A stretch of DNA of 64,000 bases from Bemisia tabaci (taxonomy: Eukaryota > Arthropoda > Insecta > Hemiptera > Aleyrodidae): positions 31,448,487 to 31,512,486 of the forward strand of contig NC_092801.1 of the NCBI RefSeq assembly GCF_918797505.1, read 5' to 3'. Each line of letters opens with the position of its first letter. Within the stretch, counting starts at the first letter, position 1. The position numbers were made by a program, and so were the translations under genes. This document shows positions 8,269-34,108 of the stretch, one piece after another. A model generated the notes under the pieces. It saw nothing but the letters and a program-made list of their open reading frames with translations. It searched no databases and was not told where the DNA came from.

Positions 8269-8751
8269 ATGCTAAATGGGGTTCTCTGGGACCAGAGTAT
8301 CTCCAAGGAGACCAAAAGAAAAATTTACAACGTCATCGTGAGGAGTATCGTAACTTACGGGAGTGAGGTCTGGCAACTCAAGAAAAGAACTGAAGACATG
8401 CTTAGGGCAACCGAGATGGACTTTTGGCGAAGGTCTGCTGGGATATCGAGAAGAGAGCGTATCCGCAATGAAAGGGTACGCGAGATAATGGGTGTGGAGA
8501 AGGACATCGTGCACGATATCAGGTCCAAGCAGTTGGTCTGGTATGGACATGTGCGAAGGATGGCAGATGATCGGTTGCCCAAGCAGGTCTTCGATTGGGT
8601 TCCTCCCGGAAGGCGACGGCGCGGACGTCCTGTGAAAGGTTGGCGACAAGGGGTGGAGGAGGAGATCAGAAGGTGCCAATTGCCTGATGATCTCTGGGAG
8701 GATAGGGGGCAATGGCGATTGAGCGTCGCAGAGCGCGAAGCGGCGCTATAA
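8269..8751 (+). pseudogene. C-terminal part of a non-LTR (RTE-like) reverse transcriptase, 5'-truncated
   Basis: This 160-residue open frame matches the C-terminal end of insect RTE-type endonuclease/reverse transcriptase proteins. It has the LNGVLWDQSISKETKRKIY thumb region, IVTYGSEVW, and RRERIRNERVRE. LVWYGHVRRM follows, then the basic GRRRRGRPVKGW block with WEDRGQWRL near the end. The catalytic fingers/palm with the DD motif and the AP endonuclease are missing, and an in-frame stop lies just upstream of the first Met. This is the usual outcome of 5'-truncated target-primed insertion. The stop is followed by AAAGCGACTTTATGTATGTG, a typical RTE-like 3' end. A second fragment of the same family's 3' end is at about 60795-60975. 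Confidence 0.85.
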
Positions 8752-20064: not shown

Positions 20065-20425
20065 TTAGATCTATTAAGTTTCAAGGAGCGTCTTAAAATT
20101 TTAGCTTGGAAGAATGTTAAGATCACTTCTCCTAGAAAGCATTTTAAAAGACTAAAATCAATGTGCACGAATCCAAGAATGCAATGATCTGACATATTTG
20201 AATAATGTGCTAGTAAATAATTGAAAGCGCCTTCGCATTTTAATTACAATGCATTGATACAACTATTCGTACTCTTAGGATGTGCTTTTTGCATACCCAA
20301 ACCATTAAAGGCGCCCTACTTTTCCCAATGACAACGCACGGAATCTTGGAAGCATTATGTTGAATTTTACCCGAGATTCGTGAAAAATGCCTGTTTAATG
20401 ATGCTGCATGAAACATTAAAAACAC
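20065..20425. repeat. Segment homologous to 32185-32590 (downstream flank of the cathepsin gene)
   Basis: It shares TAAGTTTCAAGGAGCG, then a GATCAC.TCTCCT block, then GAAGGCGCC / GCGCCTTC, CAACTATTCGTGCTCTTAGG, GGATGTGC and GCATACCCAAA with 32185-32590, in the same order and orientation. The minus-strand translations also align (IWVC..YILR.RIV). One copy lies just beyond the gene's 3' end and the other just beyond its 5' end. Confidence 0.65.
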
Positions 20426-20720
20426 ATATGTGCATAAGGAAACTAATGGCGGATAAGTTGTTTTTAACTGAGACAGATATTTTAGTTCATATTTGCAAAA
20501 TACAGTTCGATTGTTACTTTTCCGACACTTATCACTCTTGATGTTCCTTCAGCATGTACCTTTTAATCTTTAATATTATATTGAAATTTATACTTTTTTT
20601 GTGACGTTAAGTTCTTCTTCAATTTTAATCATCCCGCGATATGCTTCCTGATCAGTGGAATTCCACTTTTGTAATATCAGAAGAACGAATTGCTGCCTTT
20701 TTTTGCAGCGCATCAATAAT

Positions 20721-20939
20721 TGGACGTAAATCTGTTAAACGGAACTAAGCGCCAAATTGAGTTCCTTTTGAGGATTTTGGAATCCCAGGAAGCGCGTTCT
20801 GTCAAAAGGAACTAAGCGCCACGGAAAAGCATTGCGAGTACAGGAGGAGCGAGCATCGCGTTCCGCATCACCCGCCAATCCAGGCCCCCTCTCCCTTCTT
20901 CCCCCGATGGCGCTTAGTTCCGTTTGATCGAAATATCCA
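20721..20939. mobile_element. MITE family G, copy 3, 46 bp past the cathepsin stop
   Basis: The ends are TGGACGTAAATCTGTTAAAC and GTTTGATCGAAATATCCA. The inner repeat GGAACTAAGCGCCA is mirrored by TGGCGCTTAGTTCC. A 115-bp part is a close inverted match to 22141-22262. It probably lies in the 3' UTR or immediate 3' flank of the cathepsin gene. Confidence 0.85.
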
Positions 20940-20985
20940 ATTCTGCATGACTTCATAAGTATTAATCGGTATTGAATAATTATTT

Positions 20986-21150
20986 TTAAGTTTTCTTTGG
21001 TCGGCCGCGTTTGCGTTTTCCACTCGAAGGTGCAGCGATCGTGCTGGCACTGGGAGTACGCTCTGGAGGTTGTTTAACTACATATGAACCAGATATGGTG
21101 TAACTTTGAACACCTATTCCACACCTTCCTTTTTTTACCAGAGCGTGACC
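20986..21150 (-). CDS. Cathepsin exon 7: CGI strand plus AT-hook-like tail
   Basis: After GTATGTTGCAG, an open frame reads GHALVKKGRCGIGVQSYTI, matching the end of papain-like enzymes (GYFRLxRGxNxCGIxxxxxYP). It then adds 35 residues not found in the family: a Pro/Ser/Thr linker (KQPPERTPSASTIAAPSS), then GKRKRGRPKKT and TAA. The RGRP core with flanking Lys/Arg is the AT-hook consensus and also resembles a nuclear localisation signal. This frame is phase 0, but exon 6 ends in phase 2, so the strong acceptor would give a stop after five more residues. A weak acceptor inside the exon (GGAAG|GTGTGG) would restore the CGIG frame but drop the preceding strand. Confidence 0.65.
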   Translation of the reverse strand, partial: GHALVKKGRCGIGVQSYTISGSYVVKQPPERTPSASTIAAPSSGKRKRGRPKKT

Positions 21151-24100
21151 CTGCAACATACATCATATCTGAATTGAGTGGTATTTAAATTGAAAATGAG
21201 CTTCAAGCCCTCTACTTCGTAGTGTTGAAGGAGAAAGCATTCTTGCGCCTATCGCTTGAAAAATGCAGGACTGTCTATGGACGGTCGTAAGTTCTCCATA
21301 TTCATCTACAATGTTGGAGAAAAATGGGCCTGTTCTACCCTGCTAAGGGGAAACGCCGTAGGAACATTTAAGGGTTGCTAAATGTCTCCCGGTGAAACAT
21401 GTAATATTCAGACCTAGTATAGTATGTCCTCATTGCAAAATTTAATCATTTTCAGGACTAAACAAATGAATTTAAGTCGCATTACAATCCGAGAATTTTG
21501 AGCACTGAATAGTGAATATGGCAGACTAAAATCGGACTACATAATTTCATTTTACAATAAATAACCTACTTTTCATGACTAATTTTAGAAACACATGAGT
21601 TAGAAACATGAAATTTTGACATGTCATATGACTTTAGCTTTCTTGTGCAGCTAAGTGCCTTTATAGATGAGCCAAAAATGGCATTTTCTTTTTGCTGAAC
21701 CTAGTCCAATTTTAAGTCACTTTTTTGCGAAGCATACTCCTCGAAATTTGTACTTCAAATCGACGTTATCTCAGTTTAGTTTGATATTTTTGGGCGTTTC
21801 AGTGCCATAATTCTCGCAGTACACTCCGTCATGCTCCAGTACCTATTCTTTATTTCAATCTGTGGGCAAAGGTTCCTTCTCTGGTAGACTGTTACAATTG
21901 TCAAATATATATTATTTTAACACCATTTCAGTCATAAGATTGCATACCTGAATGCCCCATTTTTGGTCGAGCTATTCCGGACGATCCATGCATCTGAAAC
22001 CAAAATGGAAAGTACTCGCATTTTACTTAGACCTTATGTAAGTTCGATGAAGATGTGTATAAAAAATGAGGGATGTTTTTTCTCTTCGACCTTCCCTCTT
22101 TTTCTGCTGGATTTATTGAGGGAACACACATTTTTGTGTCCTACACTTGCAATGCTTTTCCATGGCGCTTAGTTCCGTTTGACAGAACGCGCTATCCGGG
22201 ATTCTGAAATCTTCAAAAGGAACTCAATTTGGCGCTTAGTTCCGTTAACAGAAATACGTCCATTTAGCATAAATACGTCCAACTTTAAAGTTGATCCCTC
22301 TTTTTTCACAGATTTTATGTATGTTTGAGCATTTATGCATCGTTAAGACATTCGGAGGAATAATTCTAACGGTTTTCCTTCAATTTCCTGCTTGGTTTTT
22401 CATGGGTGAAAATAATTTCGATTTATTCCATTAATTCCAAGTTTTGTAAAATAATGTTAGCGAGGTAAGACAAAAGTGATTAAAATGAGACGAAATAAGG
22501 TTGGGGTTACCTTTGTAATGGCCAACGATAACAACGCTATGGTCAAGTTTAGCCGGATTATTGCTGCAATGAGGTACATCAAAAACTCCAGAAACATAGT
22601 GCTGAAACGAAAAATAACGGTTTTAACGCAAACACTGATGTAATGAATTTAGAAATTATTAGCATCCAATGAACCAAACAATACACTAAGATGAAAAACG
22701 TTGCTGCCATCCGGGAAACAAGTCTCAAAAAGGTGATAAGGAACGTAAAAATAAAAGAAAAGTATGAATAAACCTCTTATTTAAAACCTCTATGTTCAGA
22801 GAGTAGGATTTCTGATCATTTATGTATCTACAATTTTCTGACTCATATCCCGTGATTTAGCATCGCTTTTCATTGTGATGTAATGAATATGATTGGTTCA
22901 AATAATCACCCTCTGTGGTGAGATATCATGAAAAACTGAAGTTGTAATCACACGAATGCGCCTGAAAATAATATTTCTGTCGTATATAGGCGTTAGCGAG
23001 GCACTTTTAGACCCAAAACTGTTTCTCCCTAAACTCTAAGCTTATTCCCTCTTTTCATAGTTGTACCTTTTACTCAGAGGCTTTTTTGTTTTATTGATGT
23101 TTTATGACTCAGAGAGGCTGAAAAGCCAATTTTTTTTCGAAGCTTCTGATATAAAATTCACTAATAGTTACGTTTACTTTTTTGAAGCGAAAATCGTCTT
23201 TGGGTGCATTTTCATTGTCTGTTTGGGGGAGCGGAAAAACTGTAGAAAGTTAGTGTGTTTTTTAAAATAAAGTCACCATTTTTGCTCTTTTCATGCACAA
23301 ACAAAGACCTTACATGTCCAAAAACTACTCCTGAAAACTTTTGACGGACTCAAGTGCATTCATTCGGTACTTTCTTCCTTGCAAAATTTGACTTTTTTTT
23401 TACATGTTACCTTGATCGACTTTAACTATGTCACCAACCGAGCAATGAAAGTTGCCTAGCAAACAGATTGAAGCCGTTTGGAAGCATCTGAACTCATCAT
23501 ATTTCGCAAAATTTGTATCGGCCAATTATTGGCAACATTAATGGAGATGTTGCATGTGTGAGGAATTTACGATTTGTCTGTTGATTCTTATGTAAAAGTT
23601 CGTGAGAAACACGATGGTGCCACTGGTTTTCTCTGAAATCATCTCCCAAGCTCAAAAAAAAGCTCTCAAGTTGAGACCAAAATGGAGGTTATATCCCACG
23701 CTATCCTGAGAGTCCACCTCTACATCAAAACAAACTCTCCATGCAAAGATAGGGAGCAAATACATTGACAAGGCTGCCACTTTATTTGGGGACTCTAATT
23801 CTGAAAACACGGCATCACTGCTAATGTATTTGCTCCCTATCTTTGCATGAAGAATTTGTCTTGATGTGGAGGTGGACTCTCAGGATAGCGTGGGATATCC
23901 CCGGCCATTTTGGCCTCAACTTGAGAGCTTTTTTTGAGCTTGGGAGTTGATTTCAGAAAAAACCAGTGGCACCATCGTGTTTCTCACGAACTTTTACATA
24001 AGAATCAACAGACAAATCGTAAATTCCTCACACATGCAACATCTCCATTAATGTTGCCAATAATTGGCCGATACAAATTTTGCGAAATATGATGAGTTCA

Positions 24101-27100
24101 GATGCTTCCAAACGGCTTCATCTGTTTGCTAGGCAACTTTCATTGCTCGGTTGGTGAAATAGTTAAAGTCGATCAAGGTAACATGTAAAAAAAAAGTCAA
24201 ATTTTGTGTGTCAAGTGTTTCTCGTGAACTTTTACATAATAATCAATAGTCAAATCACAAATTCCTCACACATGCAACATCTCCATTAGGAACCAAAATT
24301 CCTTGCACAGTTTAAAAGCAACGTATGTATCCTTAGTTTCCCAATAGACATATGTGTTTTTACGGTCCAATTCTTACTTGGAATTCCTTTGGAGCGTGCA
24401 TGTTCGTTGGGATCGGAGTGTGCTTCAAATATGTTGTCAGAGACTCCTCGCCGACTAAATCGTAACTCGCGATTCTGGCCCACGCTCGAATGTGAGACTT
24501 ACACTCTCCATCCGTTGCTTCGTAAGGATACGCTTCGGAGGTTGGCAGTCCATGATATCTAATGTAATGCAGAGCATATTCCAAGTTCCCACCACTACAA
24601 CCAGAGTTAGCAACGCAGTCAAGCAATGCTGTCGACATTTCCAAACTTTTATGAATTAATGGAATTTGGACCGAGTTTAAGGTGATTCGATGGACGCTAT
24701 ATTTTGCGTCAGAACGGCATGCGATCTTTGGAAAAAAAGCACATTGGATCTAGAGTCTAGACTCTTGAAAACATTGACAAGAAAGAGGACTCTTAATTCA
24801 ATCAGATGTAAGCTTAAATCAAAAGGAAATCCGCTCAAATTAAGAGGCTTGGTTCTTGATTTAAGCTTGAATCTGATTGAATCAAGGGTATTTTTTCTTT
24901 CCGATGTTTTTAAGAGTCTCGACTCTAGATCCAATGTGTTTTTTTTCCAAGTGATGTTTTTAGTTCCATTTTTTCAGACAGGTAGCAGTTACATTTCTCG
25001 TATTTTGAGATCGAAATTCTGTTAACAGGAGAATAATGAATTCACGTACCAATTTTGACACAGAAATTCAACGTGATGAAGGCGTGATTTTTCTAGAGGC
25101 AATATATCGCATTCGATACGGATATCGAAACTGCGCTCGAATACGATATGTTTCCTCTTAAAAAACCACGCCTCGATTACGTCGAATTTGTTGGTCAAAA
25201 TTGGTACTTGAATTCTCTGGAACAGAATTGCCATCTCGAAATTTGAGACAAATGACAAGTAGCTAAAAAAATGAAACTAATCAATGCGATGTATCGCATG
25301 TCGTTTTGACACAAAATATAGCGTCCACCGAATCACCTTAACAGGCAGGATCTGAGTTACACTCAGGTTGAATTGAGCAAAAAAAATAAATTTGAAAATT
25401 TTGAAAGTAAGAAATTGTCTTACTAAAAACTTAGCCCAAGATAAACCCAAGAAGCACCAAAAAGGCTCAAGAGGCCTCAACTAGAAATGTTTCCATTGTC
25501 TGGGAGTCGCGTCTCCCGCGATGATGGCCTGCACGGAAAAAAAAGGACCGTCATTTTAATCGTCGCGACTGTTAAGGGAACAGCCCTTGGCTGTTAAAAA
25601 ACGGCACAGCATCCTGGTTATTAAAATAACATTACCTTTGTCTGTTATTATAACAGGCGCTTTGCTGTCACATTGACAGTACATATATGTAACAATGACA
25701 GCAAAATCTGCTCAACCTACATCAAATAGTATGTTACACTGACAGCGCAGCTGCTGGCGTAAACGCCGGTTCCCCATCAGATTGACGTTCACGCTGCTTT
25801 CGATTTAACAGCGGCCGCTGCTGTCGAAAAAGCAGCGTCGCTGTTTTCATGACAGCCGGTTCGTCTTTGAATTTAAATCCACGTTGCTGTCGATGTAGCA
25901 GCGCTGCTGCTCATGTAAACGCAAATTAGCTTTTGAATTTTCATTCACACTGCTGTTAATGTGGCAGACACGATGCCAAGCAGCTGTAAAAAACCATGGT
26001 CATACTTACATGCTTATGTAAATAGCTGATAATTGCTTAACTGGTTTCAAGTAAATGATACAAAAACCGTAGATAATATTCCGGTCAAAGTAACATTTAC
26101 AGACTAAATCAGTTTCACAATGAGTTAATTCACAAACATTTTAACAGTTTAAATGCACAATAACACTACATTAAGTATACATCTTTGCAGTTCTCGGTTG
26201 GGCAGAATTGATCATGGCCTAGGGGTCGGCAACAAATTATGTGAGGTACATTTTAAACCCTTCCTCTCCACAGATTATTTTCGTTTTTCCAAATAACCCA
26301 ACTTATCACTCGCGGCCTGGACAGATATTGCACATACACTGTATTACACATTGAAACACTTTACGTCATTAAGACAATGTAACGGTGTCACGTTGGCGTC
26401 ATCAATAAAAAACAACGTAAGAACCAAACAGCCGATCGTGCTCATGAATTAAAAACACCAAAAATGTATTATAAAAGAGTTCAAAAAATTCTACCAAGAT
26501 TAGGATTTGCTAAATTATAACTTCAATTCATTTCAAAACAGCCTAAATTTCTTTAAACCAAAAAAAGGAAAAAATCACACAATGGAATTAGGATTCTGCA
26601 AAAACCCATCGGAAAGTATCGGAGACAGGGCTGATGGTATAATCTACAGGAAACGAAATAAAAAGCGTGCCTGCATATAAATATGTAAGGCACGCTAAAA
26701 ATAATAATTGGATGCACTGGACGCAAACCTAATTGATTTGAGAGTGCGTGTAACGTCAAAGGTGAAGTTGAAACCAAAAAACGCAAATATATAGCAGAAG
26801 AAATTCCGAGTTGAGTGGATTCATAATGATGCCTTACAAAATGACGTCTGCCCGCAACTGATTCCAGTGTGCCCAAATTTGATTATATCGTAAGAGTTAC
26901 TTTCCTACGGAGCTACTAATTTTGCAGATCGCGCACTGAGTATCAAAACTAATCACTTTCTTCGCCAAAATTCACTCGCACACACAATTTGAGCACGATT
27001 TCGAAACGCAAACGCAAGACTTCTCCGACTCAAAACCACTGACTGTTGAGCAAACGAAATCCCTTTAAACAGTGATATGGCCGCCTCAGCGAACAGACTG

Positions 27101-30100
27101 GACTGGACTGGAATGCGCATACAACGCCGAGGGAAGAAACAGCCGTTAGAGTTCTAAGAATTTCCCTGACCGGGCCCTTTGTCAGATCGGCGCGCAAGCG
27201 CAACCCTCGAGAAGGAGGGTGGACAGTGGTGACTGGAGGGTAAGGAGAGGTTTTCTGCGTCACCACTCGCAGCGGGGCGATCGACGACTGTTCATAACTG
27301 CGCATGCGCGCTGCGCCGATCGCGCGGGACTGGCTGGGATGGGATGCTCCGTGCAACGGTCAGGATTTTACCGTCAACCCGCTGTTAAATGAGCATTCGA
27401 AAGGGCTGCTATTTCGACACCCTCGCTGTTGCTTTAGCAGATTATTTGTGCGAATTTAACGGCCTTCAAAACATTAGACCTACACGACACGACACACCTA
27501 CACGAATGTAAATTTAAAATCCAAACGAATGTCAAAATAACGTGTGGACTGTAAAATCAAAAGTCAATGACAGTCATTCCAAAAGCTTCAGGAACTGTTG
27601 ATTTAATGAACCGCACTGATGTTAACTCAGCAGTCGTGTGATGATGGAATAACATACAGAATGTTATTTCAAAAGCATTAATAAGATGTTGAGCTAACAG
27701 ATTTGCACACTTTTGTTTCAACATACTTAAAATGTTCAATTAACAGTCACGACAACTAAAAGAACAGAGAAACGTCAAACAAATTTAACATTCAATGCGA
27801 CTGTTAAAATGACAGGTCTTTTTTTTCCGTGTGTGTATGATGGAAAAATCTGGCAACATTGAAATGTAGTTACGTTCTGTCGTGAGAAAAACAACGAATT
27901 GTGAAATAAAATGAACGATCCGTCGCACGGTAGATCAAGTCAATGAGAGAGGTCGGACATGAAATTTTTGATCAATGCAAATTTTGATGTTTATTCTATC
28001 ACATTTTAAGTTTCGAGGGGTGCTTTTAGTACACTGAAAAAATCAGTAGAACTTACCATTCCTTCACGCTGTATTTCACACAGCGTCAATTCCGAGTCAA
28101 TTCTGCCAGAAGAAAGGTAAACGTTTCTATATACTGGTACAGGTAACAATTCCTCTGGCAGAATAGTCTTGAAGATTAGTAGGATTTACCATTCCTTCAC
28201 GCTGTGTGAAATACAGCGTGAAGAAATGGTAAATTCTACCAATCTTTTTTTTCAGTGTACGCAGATTACGCGCTGAAGAGCGGATTTCAGACTTTTTTGT
28301 TGTGCCCCACGTGATTTTTGAGCGGATTTACTCCTTAAGTATACATTTAATTGGCTGTACCTCTTGCGTGCAACAGATCCATTATCCATATAAAAAACAG
28401 TCAAGTACACAAATGAGGATGTTGATGATTTGAGTGAGAGTGGCATAGCGCCAAATTAGTCTTTCTACAGTGAAGGTAAGGGTGGTTTCACGATAACTGA
28501 AATGGTTTTGTCGCCGTAACAGACAACACATTTTTTGGTCATATTTTTAGTAGAAATGATAATCACTCGAATTTGTTTGAATTAATCTTCAAAGGGTTGC
28601 GTATTGTATTGTAACGCTTTCTTATCATTTATTGCTCTACTTCTCAATTAATATTATGTAAATTCCGAAAATGTGCTGTCTGTCACGCGGTAAAAAGTCA
28701 GCGTAACAGACAGCACATTTTCGGCCATTTATATATTAAAATTGAAAAGTAGATCGAGCGATAAATCATTGAAAAGCGTTATAATACACGTAACCGTAAG
28801 GAATGGCACATTCCACCAATCTTTTTTTTCAGTGTTGAATATTTCACGAAGAAACCAATGAGCCTACTTTTAGAGCCTCAACGTTTGTATGAACGAAATT
28901 ATACGGTTTTAAAGTTTCCAAATTTTGTGCGACCTCTCTCATTGACTCGATCCACCTTGCGCGGTATGTCACGTTTCTTAGTGCGACTCACCTTGTTTTG
29001 AGAGCGGGACAATTTTGCATCGCGACCTTGCCAACTCGATAGCTATGGCATCTGCAGCTGCAAATGCCCAACATGCCTTGCATTCTCTTCCCGGTAGGTT
29101 CTGCAAACAAAGTTAAGAAAGAAAGGGTTCATAACTTCGCGGGAAGAAAGCTAGGTACGAATTCCGTTAGTTCCAGAGACAACTCAACTGTAATTCCTAA
29201 AAGCGCTCATGGGTACCATTAACAGACAGGAAAGTTTTATACTTTTAGCCAAAAGGGATTTTTGGGAGAGGGGGTTACTAAAAGGCATCGCGCCGATAGC
29301 ACTCTTTACTCTCGGAAAATTTTTGGTTGAATTGAGTTTTTTCCGCTTTTAGAATTTTTTTTTCGGAATCATGGAGAATTCGCACAAAAATTTTTTGTTA
29401 CTTTGTCTGAAAGTGCTAATTTTGTGTGAAGAGCTAATCTCGCATAATTTTTTAACTTTTTCTGATGTGGGAAATACTATAAAAATCGATTTACTAGTGA
29501 AAATGAACCTCCTAATGACGTCATCTGGCGGCAATCCCTATTTAGTCGCATGTAATTTAGCAGCTTAGGTTACTTCGTCATATCTCCTCCAAAATGGTTC
29601 AATTTATGAACCATGGGTATCTTCGCGTTACGTTCACTTAGTAGTTTCCACTTCAACAGGAAATTCATCAAATTTTAGCCACCTGTAAATTCTCCATTAT
29701 ACACGGAGAAAAAAAATTCGTGCGTAGGACCCGAAGTTTAGGTCATATGGATCTCTGAATTTTCGGATTGAGCATCTGAACACTTTAGGTCCAGCTGCTG
29801 AGGTTTGGATCACACATCTGAAACTTCAGTTCATACATCTGAAGTACTTCGGTTTTCACATCCGAAAAACTTCGGTTTCACATCCGAAAAACTTCAGTTT
29901 TCACATCCGAAAAACTTCGGTTCTCATATCTGAAGTACTTCAGATGTAAGAATTGAAGTTTCAGATGTGTGATCCGAACCTCGACAGCTAGACCTAAAGT
30001 GTGCAGATGCTCAATCCAAAAACTTCAGAGATCCATATGACCTAAACTTCGGGTCCCACGCACGAAAATTTTTTCTCCGTGTAAGCTTTTAAAGTTTCCA

Positions 30101-32131
30101 AATTTTGCCCGACCCCTCGAATGGGCTCTGTCGACTGTGCGACGTACCTGAGGTTCAGTCTCCGGGTAATATTGTACGGGTACTCGCCAATCCAGCATCG
30201 GTCCTCCCTCCGAATATTTCCCGACGAAAAAATCGGACGCGTACTTGCAGAACGACGGGACAGAGGTCGTGCGGGACGGGGGTGGGGGCGGCAAAGAGGG
30301 CTCCGGCCCGCGGGGTGGCACCGAGCGAGAACGCCACCAATTCCAGTTATTACTCGACCCACGGCTCTCCAGCATCCGTCGCTCCAAGTTGGAAGTTTCC
30401 GAAGAGGTATCTTCTGTCTCGGAGATGCCCATCAATGTCAGGTACTCGTCGCCTGCGCATGGGAATCGGATAGAATCAAATGGGCCAGTCGTATCTAGAG
30501 TCCCTTTATACTGAGAGTCAAGACAATGTGAATCCATTTCTGATTGGTTCCCGTATTTTAAGCCTCCATAGTGTCATAAATGGGAATAAAGATTACAATT
30601 TCAGCGATTGCAAAGATTATACTGTAGAATGAACCGGAGAATAACGGGTTCGACAAGGAACAAACGGAATGAGAGAAGGAACGGAGAAAGGAATTTGAGA
30701 ATGAACCGATCAAAGATTACGAAAAACTGTCAATTTGTGTAATCTTTATTCCCATTTGTGACTCCATGAGGGGGTGTTGTCTTGACTCTCAGTATAAAGG
30801 GACTCTAGTCGTATCTATTGCCGGAATCACACGCTGAATTTGGCAGCTGAATATGGAAGTCAAGAGACATCGCTCAACGGCTGAAATTTCGCAAAGTCGA
30901 GTTATTTCTATCCATATTTGTACCAAATGTAATCGAATTGCTGAGACAAATCCAACATTATCCAATGGTCTCTGATAATCGGTCTCTGTTGTCTTCCACA
31001 TTCAAGCCACATTCAGCGTGTGATTCCGGCATCAGTCACCGGCTAATAGGGAAATCCGGCATTTTACAAAATACCTAAGCATATACGAAAAATATGCAGT
31101 AGAAGCATTTCAGTGTTTGAAATTTCCCTTTTGTCTAGACATTTTTCAAAATGCTTCGGCATTTATGAAATTGAGTAGGCATTTTTAAAAAAACCTTGGC
31201 AAATAAGCGAACTGAAATCCTTTTTGCTTAAGCATTTTGCAAATGTCAGGTTTTCGTATTAGCCTGAGACATCTACATCGAGAGGTTATAGGTAACTAGA
31301 GGAACTACCTCCTAGCACGAGAATAACATAATCTGATAAATGAGAGCTAAAAAATTGTGTTTTCATCCTCATTTCATTCCTTTTTTCTTTCGTTCAGCTC
31401 CTCCGGATATCACATTGCTGATTTCCTCGCTCGTTTTAGTTTTCTTGACAGAAACTAATTAGAGCACGTCTCCAGCCATTCTGCGAGATTCCCTTTGCTC
31501 GTAAAATTCGGCATATGTTGAGCATAGCAAATATAATTTTCTTGCTTATTTTCTCTCACACGGAAAAAATGTAAATGTTGATTCAGCATTTATATTGTTA
31601 AAAACATGTTCGACAAGTTTCAAATGCTGATTTTACATGTGGAGAAATGCTAACTTAACTACGCCCACTGTAAAACGAACAAATTCAGATGTTCTCTCAG
31701 CATTTTTATATTGTAAAATCAGCATTTGAAACCTGAAGGGATTTTTTTTAACAATTTAAATGCTAAATCAGCATTTAATTTTTTCGTGCAGTTGTATGTC
31801 TGTGTATAGGGTTGAAATTTCACCTACTTGTAAGATCCGTGTAAGGGCCGATTCCGAAAACGACGTTTCCTTTTCGTTCAGCCATGAGGTTTTCGATTAC
31901 AGCCAAGTTTTCCTTGAAGATCTCAAAACGTCTCTGTTCCTCTTGTAGTGAGCTGTATTTCTTCTCATACGCCTTCTTAAAGACTTCAAATTGTTCTCGT
32001 AAATTCATACTGTCTACATTTTCCTGGCATGCAAGAAGAAGACAACATAGTAACAAAACTGTTTTAAGCCGAAATAAAAGGAACACTTTTAAAAGTAAGA
32101 AGTTAATCCACGATAGAAAGACTGACTTCAA
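20986..32131 (-). CDS. Cathepsin L/F-like cysteine protease (peptidase C1A), seven exons, possibly decaying
   Basis: This gene was assembled by hand from seven minus-strand exons: 32131-31828, 30452-30148, 29100-28992, 24628-24378, 22601-22511, 21993-21948 and 21150-20986. Exons 1-6 join in consistent phase to 368 residues. A hydrophobic N-terminus (about 1-36) is followed by an I29 prodomain with an ERFNIN-type spacing (E64, R68, F72, N75, I79). A DWR mature start lies at 189-191, catalytic Cys213 in ACWAF, GCSGG at 249-253, His344 in LDHSVVIVG and Asn360 in WIVRNSS. The family degrades proteins in lysosomes or gut lumen after prodomain removal. Oddities are a long linker between prodomain and mature enzyme, Gly at the usual oxyanion Gln spacing, and NSS in place of NSW. 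The last intron breaks frame. Introns hold many mobile elements. The cathepsin family is certain; an active enzyme is not. Confidence 0.85.
21341..21400. repeat. MITE family L, one end only
   Basis: CTGCTAAGGGGAAACGCCGT, then AGGAACATTTAAGGGTTGCT, matches the left end of family L (14346, 18466). I could not find the partner end downstream. It lies in the last cathepsin intron. Confidence 0.6.
21948..21993 (-). CDS. Cathepsin exon 6: catalytic asparagine
   Basis: This tiny 46-bp exon lies between TTGGTTTCAG and TTCAG|GTATGC. Its first two bases complete Asp, giving GHYK-D-AWIVRNSSTKNGAF. That matches the family's YWIVKNSWGTxWGExGYF with the catalytic Asn kept. The following Trp is Ser, and about three residues of the WGTxWGE turn are missing. 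It ends in phase 2. Confidence 0.85.
22141..22262. mobile_element. MITE family G, copy 4 (partial), in cathepsin intron 5
   Basis: This is an inverted match of about 115 bp to the first part of 20721-20939. It starts from GCAATGCTTTTCCATGGCGC and ends GAAATACGTCCA. A second ATAAATACGTCCA follows 18 bp later. The other terminus is not apparent. Confidence 0.75.
22511..22601 (-). CDS. Cathepsin exon 5: catalytic histidine
   Basis: The acceptor is TTTCGTTTCAG and the donor AAAG|GTAACC, for 91 bp. The exon reads HYVSGVFDVPHCS, then KLDHSVVIVGHYK. This is the family's FYxSGVY...C...LDHAVLVVGYG with the catalytic His in LDH. The usual GYG is GHYK. It starts in phase 0 after ...EFQ and ends in phase 1, completing Asp with exon 6. 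Confidence 0.9.
23382..24206. mobile_element. Near-perfect 825-bp palindrome in cathepsin intron 4
   Basis: The left arm begins CAAAATTTGACTTTTTTTTT, then ACATGTTACCTTGATCGAC. The right arm ends with the exact complement. Pairing continues through CCGAGCAATGAAAGTTGCC and TGTTGCATGTGTGAGGAAT to GGGAGCAAATACATT against AATGTATTTGCTCCC, so the arms are about 385 bp with only a few percent mismatch. The loop is about 23770-23820. A third, partial copy of one arm follows at 24207-24290. It has no coding capacity. Transcribed with the gene, it would fold into a long hairpin. Confidence 0.95.
24378..24628 (-). CDS. Cathepsin exon 4: GCxGG block
   Basis: The exon opens after ATGTCGACAG and joins as SKQ-A-LLDC, the exact family context (LSEQxLVDC). 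It then reads SGCSGGNLEYALHYI, LPTSEAYPYEATDGEC and ARIASYDLV. It ends at APKEFQ|GTAAGA in phase 0. Each piece has a direct counterpart in cathepsins L and F: GCxGG, the GI..E..YPY turn with its disulfide Cys, and the segment before FQxYxSG. Element O copy 2 with its nested MITE C starts about 50 bp upstream of the acceptor. Confidence 0.9.
24681..25337. mobile_element. Element O, copy 2, interrupted by MITE C; TTAA flanks
   Basis: The left end GGTGATTCGATGGACGCTAT is flanked by TTAA (24677-24680). The right end ATAGCGTCCACCGAATCACC is flanked by TTAA (25338-25341). Subterminal blocks TTTTGCGTCAGAACGGCATG and CATGTCGTTTTGACACAAAA are complementary. A TTAA target again suggests a piggyBac-type MITE. 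MITE C copy 1 (24726-24953) sits inside it, so O inserted first. A related copy is at 54812-55227. Confidence 0.8.
24726..24953. mobile_element. MITE family C, copy 1 (nested in element O)
   Basis: The ends approximate CACTGGAAAAAA, then ACATTGGATCTAGAGTC, with the complementary GACTCTAGATCCAATGTG at the right. The arms include AATTCAATCAGATGTAAGC and GCTTGAATCTGATTGAATC. The core is CTCAAATTAAGAGGCTTGG. Six copies lie in the window (24726, 36652, 37568, 42924, 49080, 49734). Confidence 0.9.
25532..27831. mobile_element. 2.3-kb element with inverted ends in cathepsin intron 3
   Basis: The left end is CACGGAAAAAAAAGGACC, then GTCATTTTAA and CGTCGC. The right end is its complement (GCGACTGTTAAAATGACAGG, then CTTTTTTTTCCGTG). 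Inside, short motifs such as CTGTTA/TAACAG, CTGTC and CAGCGCTGCTGCT are scattered near both ends, as transposase-binding repeats often are. A GC-rich stretch at about 27030-27370 has no recognisable protein. ORFs at 26553-26876 and 27030-27356 (minus) lack family signatures. It is probably non-autonomous. Confidence 0.8.
27843..28031. repeat. Partial repeats: family R end and a 'gagaggtcggac' repeat
   Basis: TCTGGCAACATTGAAATGTA, then GTTACGTTCTGTCG, matches the ends of the element at 34109-34365. It is followed by ATCAAGTCAATGAGAGAGGT, then CGGACATGAAATTT. That repeat is found inverted at 28866-28975 and directly in the 250-bp tandem unit at 35801-36300. Confidence 0.65.
28031..28258. mobile_element. 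MITE family E
   Basis: The ends are ACACTGAAAAAATCAGTAGA and TACCAATCTTTTTTTTCAGTGT. The inner ACCATTCCTTCACGCTGT is mirrored by GTGAAGAAATGGT, and a second ACCATTCCTTCACGCTGTG lies inside. A TTCTGCC/GGCAGAA pair marks the centre. A solo end recurs at 28800-28836. Confidence 0.8.
28258..28390. repeat. Dispersed repeat with conserved core, inverted copy
   Basis: Read on the minus strand this is AATGGATCTGTTGCACGC, then AAGAGGTACAG. It continues into GCTCAAAAATCACGTGG and AGCGCGTAATCTGCG, aligning with 10980-11125. Confidence 0.7.
28495..28835. repeat. Inverted repeat around GACAGCACATTTTCGG
   Basis: CCGAAAATGTGCTGTCTGT, then CACGC, at about 28667-28690 pairs with GCGTAACAGACAGCACATTT at 28700. 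Outer arms (GTAACGCTTTC / GAAAAGCGTTATAA and CTACTTCTCAATT / AATTGAAAAGTAG) extend the pairing to about 28605-28790. A third copy of the core (GTAACAGACAACACATTTTT) is at 28516. Confidence 0.75.
28992..29100 (-). CDS. Cathepsin exon 3: catalytic cysteine
   Basis: This 109-bp exon lies between TTGTTTGCAG and CAAG|GTGAGT. It encodes NLPGRECKACWAF, then AAADAIAIELA, then CKIVPLSKQ. C22 and C25 (papain numbering) and the following Trp are kept. Papain-type enzymes read QGxCGSCW. Here the position of the oxyanion-hole Gln is Gly, and GS before the Cys is KA. LSKQ matches the family's LSEQ. It starts in phase 0 and ends in phase 1, joining exon 4 as LSKQ-A-LLDC. Confidence 0.9.
29701..30082. mobile_element. 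Foldback element D with internal 23-bp repeats
   Basis: The ends are ACACGGAGAAAAAAAATTCG and CGAAAATTTTTTCTCCGTGT. The arms continue with GACCCGAAGTTTAGGTCATA / TATGACCTAAACTTCGGGTC and ATCACACATCTGAAACTTCA / its mirror. The centre holds three to four copies of TTTTCACATCCGAAAAACTTC. It lies 65 bp beyond the exon 2 donor of the cathepsin gene. Confidence 0.9.
30148..30452 (-). CDS. Cathepsin exon 2: linker and start of mature enzyme
   Basis: The acceptor is CATGCGCAG and the first two bases complete a Ser codon, giving DLT-S-DEYLTLMG, which fits the end of the I29 domain. Then follow about 80 residues rich in Ser, Arg and Pro, including PSLPPPPPSR, before PMLDWR, the conserved N-terminus of mature papain-like enzymes. 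The donor is CAG|GTACGT (phase 0). The usual gap from DLT to DWR is about 35-40 residues, so the linker is roughly doubled. MITE H lies 43 bp upstream of the acceptor and foldback element D about 65 bp beyond the donor. The exon is GC-rich and open in several frames. Confidence 0.8.
30495..30808. mobile_element. MITE family H with 6-bp target duplication
   Basis: The ends are CTAGAGTCCCTTTATACTGA and TCAGTATAAAGGGACTCTAG, perfectly complementary over more than 25 bases. They are flanked by TCGTAT on both sides (30489-30494 and 30809-30814), a probable target duplication. The inner arms AAAGATTACAATTTC / AATTTGTGTAATCTTT pair loosely. It sits 43 bp upstream of cathepsin exon 2. Confidence 0.9.
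30819..31031. mobile_element. Inverted-repeat MITE (family I)
   Basis: TGCCGGAATCACACGCTGAA, then TTTGGC, is mirrored by TTCAGCGTGTGATTCCGGCA. The inner pairing is weaker (GAAGTCAAGAGAC / GGTCTCTGTTGTC). It is 213 bp, non-coding, and lies directly beside MITE H in cathepsin intron 1. Confidence 0.85.
31032..31558. other. AT-rich intron sequence, no gene
   Basis: This is part of cathepsin intron 1. Words such as GGCATTT and AAGCATTT recur at irregular spacing between 31050 and 31250. I see no other structure. Confidence 0.5.
31559..31789. mobile_element. MITE family J
   Basis: The ends are CACGGAAAAAATGTAAATGT and GCATTTAATTTTTTCGTG. The inner arms are TTGATTCAGCATTTA / TAAATGCTAAATCAGC and GTTTCAAATGCTGATTTTAC / TAAAATCAGCATTTGAAAC. 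The whole interior is built of CAGCATTT motifs. It lies 39 bp downstream of the exon 1 donor. Confidence 0.85.
31828..32131 (-). CDS. Cathepsin exon 1: signal peptide and I29 prodomain
   Basis: This exon encodes residues 1-101. The Met at 32131 opens a frame with a hydrophobic stretch (FLLLKVFLLF, then VLLLCCLLLAC) that would serve as a long signal peptide. A shorter leader starting in an upstream exon and joining at the AAACAG at about 32067 is possible. The prodomain follows: REQFEVFKKAYEKKY, then ExxxRxxxFxxNxxxI, with Met where the last Asn of ERFNIN is expected. GIGPYTD corresponds to the GNFD motif with Asn to Gly and Phe to Tyr changes. The exon ends in phase 1 at A|GTAGG, after DLT. 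Confidence 0.8.
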
Positions 32132-32184
32132 AATTGCCTTGACTGGATGTATTCTTGAGAGTTCCTTACATGTCCCTAAACCCT

Positions 32185-32590
32185 GTAAGTTTCAAGGAGC
32201 GGTTGATTTTTTTAATTTTAAAGATTGTTTAGATCACCCCTTCTAAAACCCAAATCAGGAGGCTAATAAGTGTTCATGCTGACTGAAATGTAATGGTCCA
32301 ACATATTTCAAAACGATAACTGGGGAACATTGAAGGCGCCATAGTTTTCTTTATGACATCGTCTTGGCGCAACTATTCGTGCTCTAAGGATGTACGCGTT
32401 GCATACCCAAATAATTGAAGGCGCCCAAGTTTTCTCGTTGATAACACTTGGATGCAACTTATCGTGCTCAAAGGATGACTGCGTTGCATTTTTCGCGTAC
32501 AGAAAACGTTGTGGACACTCTGGACGTTTTAATGAAAACGCCTGGGTAAAATTTTGCACAGCCGTGGTAACCGTGTTTTGACGGTGTCAG
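32185..32590. repeat. Segment homologous to 20065-20425 (upstream flank of the cathepsin gene)
   Basis: See the partner copy at 20065-20425. It contains GGCGCCATAGTTTTC..., CAACTATTCGTGCTCTAAGG and GCATACCCAAATAATTGAAG, then GCGCC. The GGCGCC-bounded core of about 90 bp may itself be a small palindromic repeat. Confidence 0.65.
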
Positions 32591-32716
32591 CTTGAAGATC
32601 AGCAAAAAATAATAAGATCAGCGCGTACACCGTGTTTTTACGTCCAGTGTCACTGAAGACGTCCTTAAAGAAGTGCAGCGTAGTTAGCACCCGTGGCGGT
32701 GCATCCCATGCTGTAG

Positions 32717-32905
32717 TGTGACATGCTCTGCGATTTATCTATTGATCTGCTATTTAGACCCATGGAAAAGAATCGATCGAAACGAAATCGTCTTAAAAAT
32801 TGGACAGGAAATATTCACAACTTTTCTTGAAAATTCATGATTTTTCGAAGGAAATTTGGCAACGACTGATGACTGATACGCGGTTCTTTCTTACTACGGC
32901 AGTAC
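32717..32905. repeat. Half copy of MITE A, then one end of MITE L
   Basis: AGTGTGACATGCTCTGCGAT, then TTATCTATTGATCTGC, matches one arm of MITE A at 32717-32780. At 32838-32905, AAGGAAATTTGGCAACGAC, then ATACGCGGTTCTTTCTTA, matches the right end of family L. Confidence 0.55.
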
Positions 32906-32929
32906 TGATCGTTTTTGATAGAAGAATTT

Positions 32930-33440
32930 CACTTTTTATCGCCATTTTGTACTCACAAGAGTCCGAGAGCTATCACCGAAAACCCGTTTCCTCAGATTAC
33001 TCAATTAACTTTTGAGGTTAAGTTTACATGGTTAACCAATCGATATCGATACAATCACACCTGTTTGATGTATCGAATACGATCTATTGACGAAGAAACT
33101 GCATTCCTACCTTAATGATCTTCTCGACTGTTTACGGCAGTACGGATCGTATTTGATAGTATCAATGTATCGTTTGGTCCAGAACAATAAAACATAACCT
33201 CAGATACAAATTTTAGGATTTAAGTTAGAATAGCGGAAAATGAGAAAATTCCTAAGAATATCACTTTTCATTGCCATATTGTACTTACAGGAATCTGAGA
33301 GCTACTATTGAAAACCCGTTTCCTGAGATTACTCAATTAATTTTTGAGGCTAAATTTACATGCTAAACCAATCGATATCGATACAATTACACCTGTTTGA
33401 TGTATCGTATACGTAACTGCATTCCTACCTTGATGACCAT
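32930..33440. repeat. Diverged tandem duplication, about 335-bp period
   Basis: ACCCGTTTCCTCAGATTACT, ACCAATCGATATCGATACAA and CACACCTGTTTGATGTATCG occur at 32980-33085 and again at 33310-33415 with 1-2 changes per block. No coding is visible. Confidence 0.8.
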
Positions 33441-33608
33441 CTCGGCCATTTTTTTCCAGCTTCTGAGTGATCCCCAAAAAGACTTCTGAATACAGGTCTG
33501 GGTTGTAAATCGGTGCAGATCTCCAAAGTTGAATCTGCAAGCGCATAATTTGTCTGTGGTGCACACTCCTCGAGTCCAGGGGACGTTAAACAGAGGGACC
33601 TTCCCCCA

Positions 33609-34108
33609 NNNNNNNNNNNNNNNNNNNNNNNNNNNNNNNNNNNNNNNNNNNNNNNNNNNNNNNNNNNNNNNNNNNNNNNNNNNNNNNNNNNNNNNNNNNN
33701 NNNNNNNNNNNNNNNNNNNNNNNNNNNNNNNNNNNNNNNNNNNNNNNNNNNNNNNNNNNNNNNNNNNNNNNNNNNNNNNNNNNNNNNNNNNNNNNNNNNN
33801 NNNNNNNNNNNNNNNNNNNNNNNNNNNNNNNNNNNNNNNNNNNNNNNNNNNNNNNNNNNNNNNNNNNNNNNNNNNNNNNNNNNNNNNNNNNNNNNNNNNN
33901 NNNNNNNNNNNNNNNNNNNNNNNNNNNNNNNNNNNNNNNNNNNNNNNNNNNNNNNNNNNNNNNNNNNNNNNNNNNNNNNNNNNNNNNNNNNNNNNNNNNN
34001 NNNNNNNNNNNNNNNNNNNNNNNNNNNNNNNNNNNNNNNNNNNNNNNNNNNNNNNNNNNNNNNNNNNNNNNNNNNNNNNNNNNNNNNNNNNNNNNNNNNN
34101 NNNNNNNN
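33609..34108. other. Assembly gap (500 N)
   Basis: Exactly 500 N bases. ORFs crossing it are artefacts. Confidence 1.

Follow-up and report, generated by a model that had tools for sequence, protein, structure and literature searches.

Does the last exon of a whitefly cathepsin gene really encode a tail of the kind found in DNA-binding proteins, and if so, what could such a tail be good for? The question is raised by exon G of a gene on the minus strand of a 64,000-nucleotide stretch of the Bemisia tabaci genome, which we call the window. Read directly, the frame of this exon (21150-20986) passes through GHALVKKGRCGIGVQSYTI, runs on for 35 codons between SYTI and the stop, and arrives at KRKRGRPKKT and TAA; the whole frame is GHALVKKGRCGIGVQSYTISGSYVVKQPPERTPSASTIAAPSSGKRKRGRPKKT followed by TAA. 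An earlier note on the same DNA had claimed this continuation past the CGI strand, and indeed reading the frame again gives the same result. An open stretch of 35 codons is not rare on its own at the local stop frequency (P about 0.15).

By its sequence, the window gene is a cathepsin L-like zymogen. The deposited protein P0001 scores 121.1 bits against Pfam Peptidase_C1, and exon D of the window alone scores 44.2 bits (cut-off 20.7); for the I29 propeptide, P0001 reaches 46.1 and P0002 51.0 bits (cut-off 24.4). P0001 contains the catalytic Cys, His and Asn, all three in one frame, and the window copy has CKACWAF, LDHSVV and RNSS up to exon F, where its frame breaks. The best relatives are P0001-P0005, all from B. 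tabaci (E 3.5e-71 or better), and the next one is a plant protein at 1.1e-28. A profile search adds more B. tabaci proteins, including P0041, whose end is that of genomic locus L043, and an alga protein at 1.8e-47. The deposited P0002 matches exons A-C and then continues into intron sequence. No further full copies of family genes were seen by tblastn inside the window. We take the gene to belong to the B. tabaci-specific cathepsin L-like clade, for which Chen et al. (PMC5157087) count 35 genes in MEAM1: the species complex is the same, and the I29 and Peptidase_C1 domains are present also in the family of the window gene. Unlike the present analysis, the accessible portion of that article makes no mention of C-terminal tails.

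Table. Features of the gene, in window positions unless a contig is given; exons are listed in the order of transcription
Feature	Position	Strand	Remark
N-terminal Cys-rich exon, cut by assembly gap 33609-34108	33429..33608	-	fuller in second copy
Exon A, I29 propeptide domain	31828..32023	-	bounds set by the corresponding second-copy exon; Pfam I29 in P0001, P0002
Exon B, propeptide end, P/R/S-rich linker, DWRVP start of enzyme domain	30148..30452	-	
Exon C, CKACWAF with catalytic Cys	28992..29100	-	
Exon D, LLDC...GCSGG...APKEFQ	24378..24628	-	above Pfam Peptidase_C1 cut-off as C9:31472864-31473133
Exon E, HYVSGVFDVPHC...DHSVVIVGHYK with catalytic His	22511..22601	-	His is Asn in second copy
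Exon F, DAWIVRNSS... with catalytic Asn; frame breaks inside	21948..21993	-	open in P0001 and second copy
AATAAA in F-G intron, directly after P0001 read-through stop	21849..21854	-	
Exon G, last strand region GHALVKKGRCGIGVQSYTI, 35-codon tail, KRKRGRPKKT, TAA	20986..21150	-	direct reading; second-copy protein 100% identical
Basic end KRKRGRPKKT, AT-hook-like, nuclear-signal-like	20989..21018	-	direct reading; below the Pfam AT_hook cut-off (14.4 against 17.4 bits)
Second copy of the gene	C9:31002542-31012909	inverted relative to window copy	457 kb away

The first difficulty lies at the junction that the earlier note had left open between its exons 6 and 7. There is a real break of frame here in the window copy, and none in the second copy. 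Exon E joined to exon F reads DAWIVRNSSTKNGAF, exon G picks up the alternative frame of F (WGIQ before, GHALV after the junction), and a plain F-G splice meets a stop within five codons. Because the frame breaks inside exon F, such a splice cannot translate the tail in the window copy. Both P0001 and the second copy pass the same site in one frame. A broken copy is not surprising, since frame-shift variants between Asia II 1 and MEAM1 are described for three cathepsin L-like genes in the accessible portion of PMC6582559.

The second copy is inverted and 99.8-99.9% identical to the window copy over window 20936-33608, apart from an insert of 2.3 kb. On the exon G side, the flank has pieces of 96.3-97.9% identity between window 7169 and 19446 and one of only 87.5% at 20276-20845; the match as a whole, window 7169-33608 against C9:30,998,500-31,029,000, goes no further than the assembly gap at 33609. 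Either a true duplication or a haplotype placed wrongly in the assembly could account for this copy. When its splice sites are chosen by eye, its eight exons, N to G, form one frame that stays open for 462 codons, with KRKRGRPKKT as the last residues before the stop. Protease and tail therefore share a frame in this copy, and the earlier view of a cathepsin-family gene with an in-frame basic tail in its last exon thus holds there. The catalytic His of the second copy is Asn (LDNSVV), whereas P0001 has His, as does the window copy. With a broken frame in one copy and a replaced His in the other, neither copy in the assembly is an intact enzyme with a tail. A signal-peptide exon upstream of the second copy was not found by tblastn or in the reading frames. 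The 2.3-kb insert (window 25532-27831) has inverted ends CACGGAAAAAAAAG... and is confined to the window copy, where it lies in intron C-D; it is the sequence into which P0002 runs.

It could be argued that exon G is an untranslated relic, with transcripts that end in the F-G intron and encode a short isoform lacking the CGI strand. P0001 and P0003 do read through the exon F donor and continue in the intron, bypassing exon G. In the window gene the read-through stop has AATAAA behind it (21854), which would allow a short isoform there, and the 400 bases after the exon G stop contain only AATAAT. Among six genes, the F-G intron contains AATAAA or ATTAAA in five, and AATAAA lies no more than 400 bases downstream of exon G in two; the poly(A) signals over these six do not decide in favour of either gene end. 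Against a relic speaks the gene of P0003 itself (L024), whose F-G intron contains neither AATAAA nor ATTAAA but which has AATAAA 203 bases after the exon G stop; in the genome, this gene has a basic-tailed exon G further on, as does L025, for which the model P0042 stops earlier. Moreover, eight deposited models (P0004, P0005, P0038, P0039, P0040, P0041, P0043 and P0044) end in a G-type exon, and the CGI strand that a short isoform would lack is a core part of the fold. In our opinion, an untranslated exon G is very improbable indeed. Deposited models that drop the last exon would hide the basic-tail trait.

A basic tail and a hydrophobic N-terminus (judged by eye) occur together in P0004 and P0038, two of the deposited models. 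The pieces of P0004 are found in order in the genome, from MMSKILNLFLILPHL to RTPKRKFGS. In the structure model of P0038 a linker at residues 186-258 is disordered, and so is the tail, with block pLDDT values of 64, 61, 51 and 41 after the last strand.

Is the tail peculiar to this gene? A search of the genome with the whole of exon G gave 25 matches, and many of these relatives end in basic clusters. Because that query contained the tail, the search was repeated with a 23-residue core free of it, which gave 30 places, including all 20 loci of the whole-exon search. Removal of one false place and merging of two identical copies (L002, L007) left 27 distinct last exons. Twelve extra stretches were fetched, of which L047, L048 and L049 lack the exon core and were excluded, and a weak match of the whole-exon search at C4:51212002 (E 7.9) falls outside the survey. 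A tail of at least 12 residues follows the last strand in 15 of the 27, the other 12 having a short end only. A K/R cluster (at least 3 of 5 residues) is present in 13 of the 15 long tails, two being without it, and in none of the 12 short ends. Looking among paralogs of the same genome, as the earlier note had proposed, thus finds a tail with a basic cluster in 13 of 27 distinct last exons. The build is recurrent: the final protease strand is followed by a flexible linker of 6-22 residues, often rich in P/S/T/Q, and then by the cluster, which in 10 of the 13 ends no more than 2 residues from the stop. Examples of such ends are KRGRKRKSYN, KLKRKKTKKT, SSSKRKRLDQS, TPKRQRLWT, STKRQRLGF (two genes), SSTKRQRTSS, DRSKRQKT and RTPKRKFGS. 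The last exon of L045 (C6:46501641) has a different tail, 61 residues long, P/Y/S-rich and without a basic cluster.

More telling than charge is spacing. K[KR]x[KR] is found in 10 of the 27 last exons, exon G included, against 0.77 expected from non-coding C-termini of equal length around the same exons; shuffling residues within the tails gives a mean of 1.2, and none of 5000 shuffles reaches 10, the motif having been named after seeing the data and the paralogs not being independent. Other papain-family last exons of the genome have it in 2 of 40 (Fisher P 0.002, with rows that are not independent). The cluster of 3 K/R in 5 residues separates the two sets less sharply, with 13/27 against 9/40 (P 0.04), and so does a PSORT-like pattern, with 7/27 against 2/40 (P 0.02). 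These 40 controls were chosen by eye from 41 matches reaching at least profile position 213, and some of them are identical or near-identical to each other. A set of 40 other deposited relatives has 3 of 5 K/R in 11, of which 3 also have K[KR]x[KR], within the last 30 residues; K/R clusters as such are not uncommon at the C-termini of other C1 proteins. On a tree the label 'basic tail' is clustered, taking 3 changes compared with a mean of 7.2 after shuffling and with 0 of 500 shuffles as low, the tree covering 18 of the 27 genes (those with catalytic exons at hand) and 3 outgroups, with 10 of 18 inner branches weakly supported.

It has to be considered that the family duplicates rapidly under weak constraint, that an old stop was lost, that former 3' UTR came to be translated and that the basic ends have no function. 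The tails align poorly beyond close pairs, the window copy is broken, catalytic residues are replaced in several members, and Asia II 1 and MEAM1 differ by frame-shift variants in three cathepsin L-like genes (accessible portion of PMC6582559). However, random C-termini of the same length from the same loci would give fewer than one K[KR]x[KR] tail rather than ten. In one close but non-identical pair, L018 and L020, differences number 30/297 in the intron, 1/66 in the core and 3/45 in the tail, which are too small numbers for judging selection on the tails. We consider functionless drift quite unlikely.

The exon G tail was not found in a set of 5.8 billion proteins, where 19 word-sharing candidates of fitting length include none at E up to 10; it has no match among PDB sequences at E up to 10, and no candidate for exon G from GTDB or viral contigs was confirmed by tblastn. 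In the accessible parts of the literature on whitefly cathepsins, among the matches listed, C-terminal basic tails are not described.

The AT-hook label, with which the earlier note had singled out this tail, needs to be weakened. Its factual core stands: KRKRGRPKKT does contain RGRP with basic residues on both sides, as in AT-hook proteins of the HMGA type. Unlike those, the exon G tail is a single motif at the chain end, and it stays under the Pfam AT_hook cut-off (14.4 against 17.4 bits when the end is scored alone); a typed consensus-like control scored 18.9 bits and three typed tandem copies of the tail end 31.8, and a Pfam scan of the whole of exon G gave no match. RGRP alone is unsurprising in 64 kb, because it occurs a second time in the six frames of the window and has a mean of 0.95 per window in 40 Markov windows of the same length. 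This other occurrence, RRRRGRPVKG at 8620, lies on the plus strand in a frame unrelated to exon G. The stricter pattern [KR]{2}.?RGRP[KR], chosen after seeing the tail, matches only the exon G site in the window and none of the 40 Markov windows. None of the 26 other distinct paralogous last exons has RGRP (1/27 in all); in its place the relatives have KRQRL, KRKRLD, KRQKT or KRKKTKK. Given the score below the cut-off and the single occurrence in 27, we rejected the AT-hook as the defining feature, call the tail AT-hook-like and take the K/R cluster as the real trait. RGRP would then be an incidental local variant that may add some weak affinity for the minor groove.

What could the K/R cluster do? 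K-[KR]-x-[KR] is a monopartite nuclear-signal pattern. We place nuclear import first because this spacing is kept in paralogs with unlike linkers, which suits the major site of importin-alpha better than mere charge does. The cluster would be a short linear docking motif, in the first place a signal of the nuclear-localisation type, coming into play once an enzyme, or a copy with altered catalytic residues, arrives in the cytosol, be it as an isoform without signal peptide or after release from lysosomes. The earlier suggestion that the tail could act as a nuclear signal is supported as a possible reading, with the motif in 10 of the 27 last exons. Generic binding of anionic surfaces would be a close second, followed by dibasic processing or drift. 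Our overall reading has three parts: exon G truly is where the B. tabaci gene for this cathepsin L-like zymogen ends, and its tail is coding; the tail represents a trait of the family, in which a flexible linker leads to a nuclear-signal-like basic motif; and the K/R cluster serves for docking, with nuclear import as the first choice. We hold this reading tentatively, with somewhat less than even confidence. A stronger version, in which selection gave a whitefly-specific expansion of secretory-type cathepsins C-terminal tails for nuclear import and DNA docking (KRxR, with the AT-hook version at the window gene), by which proteases and copies with altered catalysis would act on chromatin or nucleoprotein in the insect's own nuclei or in nuclei of cells that the secretion reaches, seems to us improbable.

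One objection to a nuclear role comes from the other end of the protein. The hydrophobic N-terminus and the Cys-rich domain point, as far as sequence can tell, to the secretory route; in contrast to usual proteins with monopartite signals, the two whitefly models in which a basic tail goes with a complete N-terminus have a secretory look. With an N-terminus of this type, a nuclear signal would need release of the enzyme or an alternative start. The same objection lends weight to the idea that the tail works simply as a polycation, binding anionic partners such as glycosaminoglycans, nucleic acid, or microbial and virion surfaces in the gut, the lysosome or a secretion, without any nuclear role. 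Several members (P0004, P0005, P0039, P0040, P0046) also have basic R/S/P-rich linkers between propeptide and enzyme, the linker being modelled as disordered in P0038, and heparin is reported, in the title of PMC3836952, to modulate a cathepsin L-like enzyme of Leishmania. Charge alone, however, leaves the excess of K[KR]x[KR] over the shuffled tails unexplained, and we regard a purely polycationic role as unlikely.

The secretory look of P0004 and P0038 would equally suit a tail that is a C-terminal propeptide, trimmed in the secretory pathway. KR would serve as a dibasic convertase site; the dipeptide occurs in 11 of the 13 tails with a basic cluster. But where the cluster ends so close to the stop, as in 10 of these 13, cleavage would remove little, and trimming is in our opinion clearly improbable.

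For docking with nuclear import, which we continue to prefer, there is precedent of a kind. Cathepsin L acts in the nucleus in other animals, as the sperm-histone protease of sea urchin and as a mammalian isoform without signal peptide (PMC3489855, in the portion accessible); like the whitefly enzymes it is a C1A protease, and a nuclear location of the whitefly family would be a proposal by analogy. The same portion of that article calls the mechanism by which isoforms without signal peptide enter the nucleus poorly understood, and it does not mention a C-terminal basic motif, in which the whitefly tails differ. Nuclear cathepsins as such are thus already known; what recurrent basic C-terminal motifs in a large lineage-specific set would offer is many natural variants of a route encoded in the sequence. 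The cathepsins of B. tabaci have also been followed as genes responding to virus acquisition and insecticide (PMC5157087, accessible portion).

Some further features of the family deserve a word. Several members have C...CxxxC...C...CxC in an N-terminal domain (window 33608-33429; P0038 residues 26-66; second copy C9:31002542-31002766), modelled in P0038 as strand-helix-strand-strand with pLDDT 83-90 for residues 31-70. An AlphaFold model of the Cys-rich N-terminal exon in isolation had low confidence (pLDDT 42) and was not used as evidence. The cysteine pattern and the order of elements resemble, we presume, CS-alpha-beta defensins, and the model would possibly place a defensin-like domain before the cathepsin propeptide.

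The catalytic Asn is replaced by Asp in P0038, in L028 and in the L018 gene (L029), and by Phe in P0043; of the 10 models in which this site could be located, 7 lack the Trp that follows Asn-Ser. Judging from these residues, many members of the family may be pseudoenzymes. Basic R/S/P-rich linkers between propeptide and enzyme occur in P0005, P0040, P0044, P0046 and P0047 and in the window at 30452-30148; P0046, with such a linker, bears the name PRP4-like kinase. Finally, copies of a GGAACTAAGCGCC repeat lie at 20731-20927, directly downstream of exon G, and at 22162-22266 in the E-F intron.
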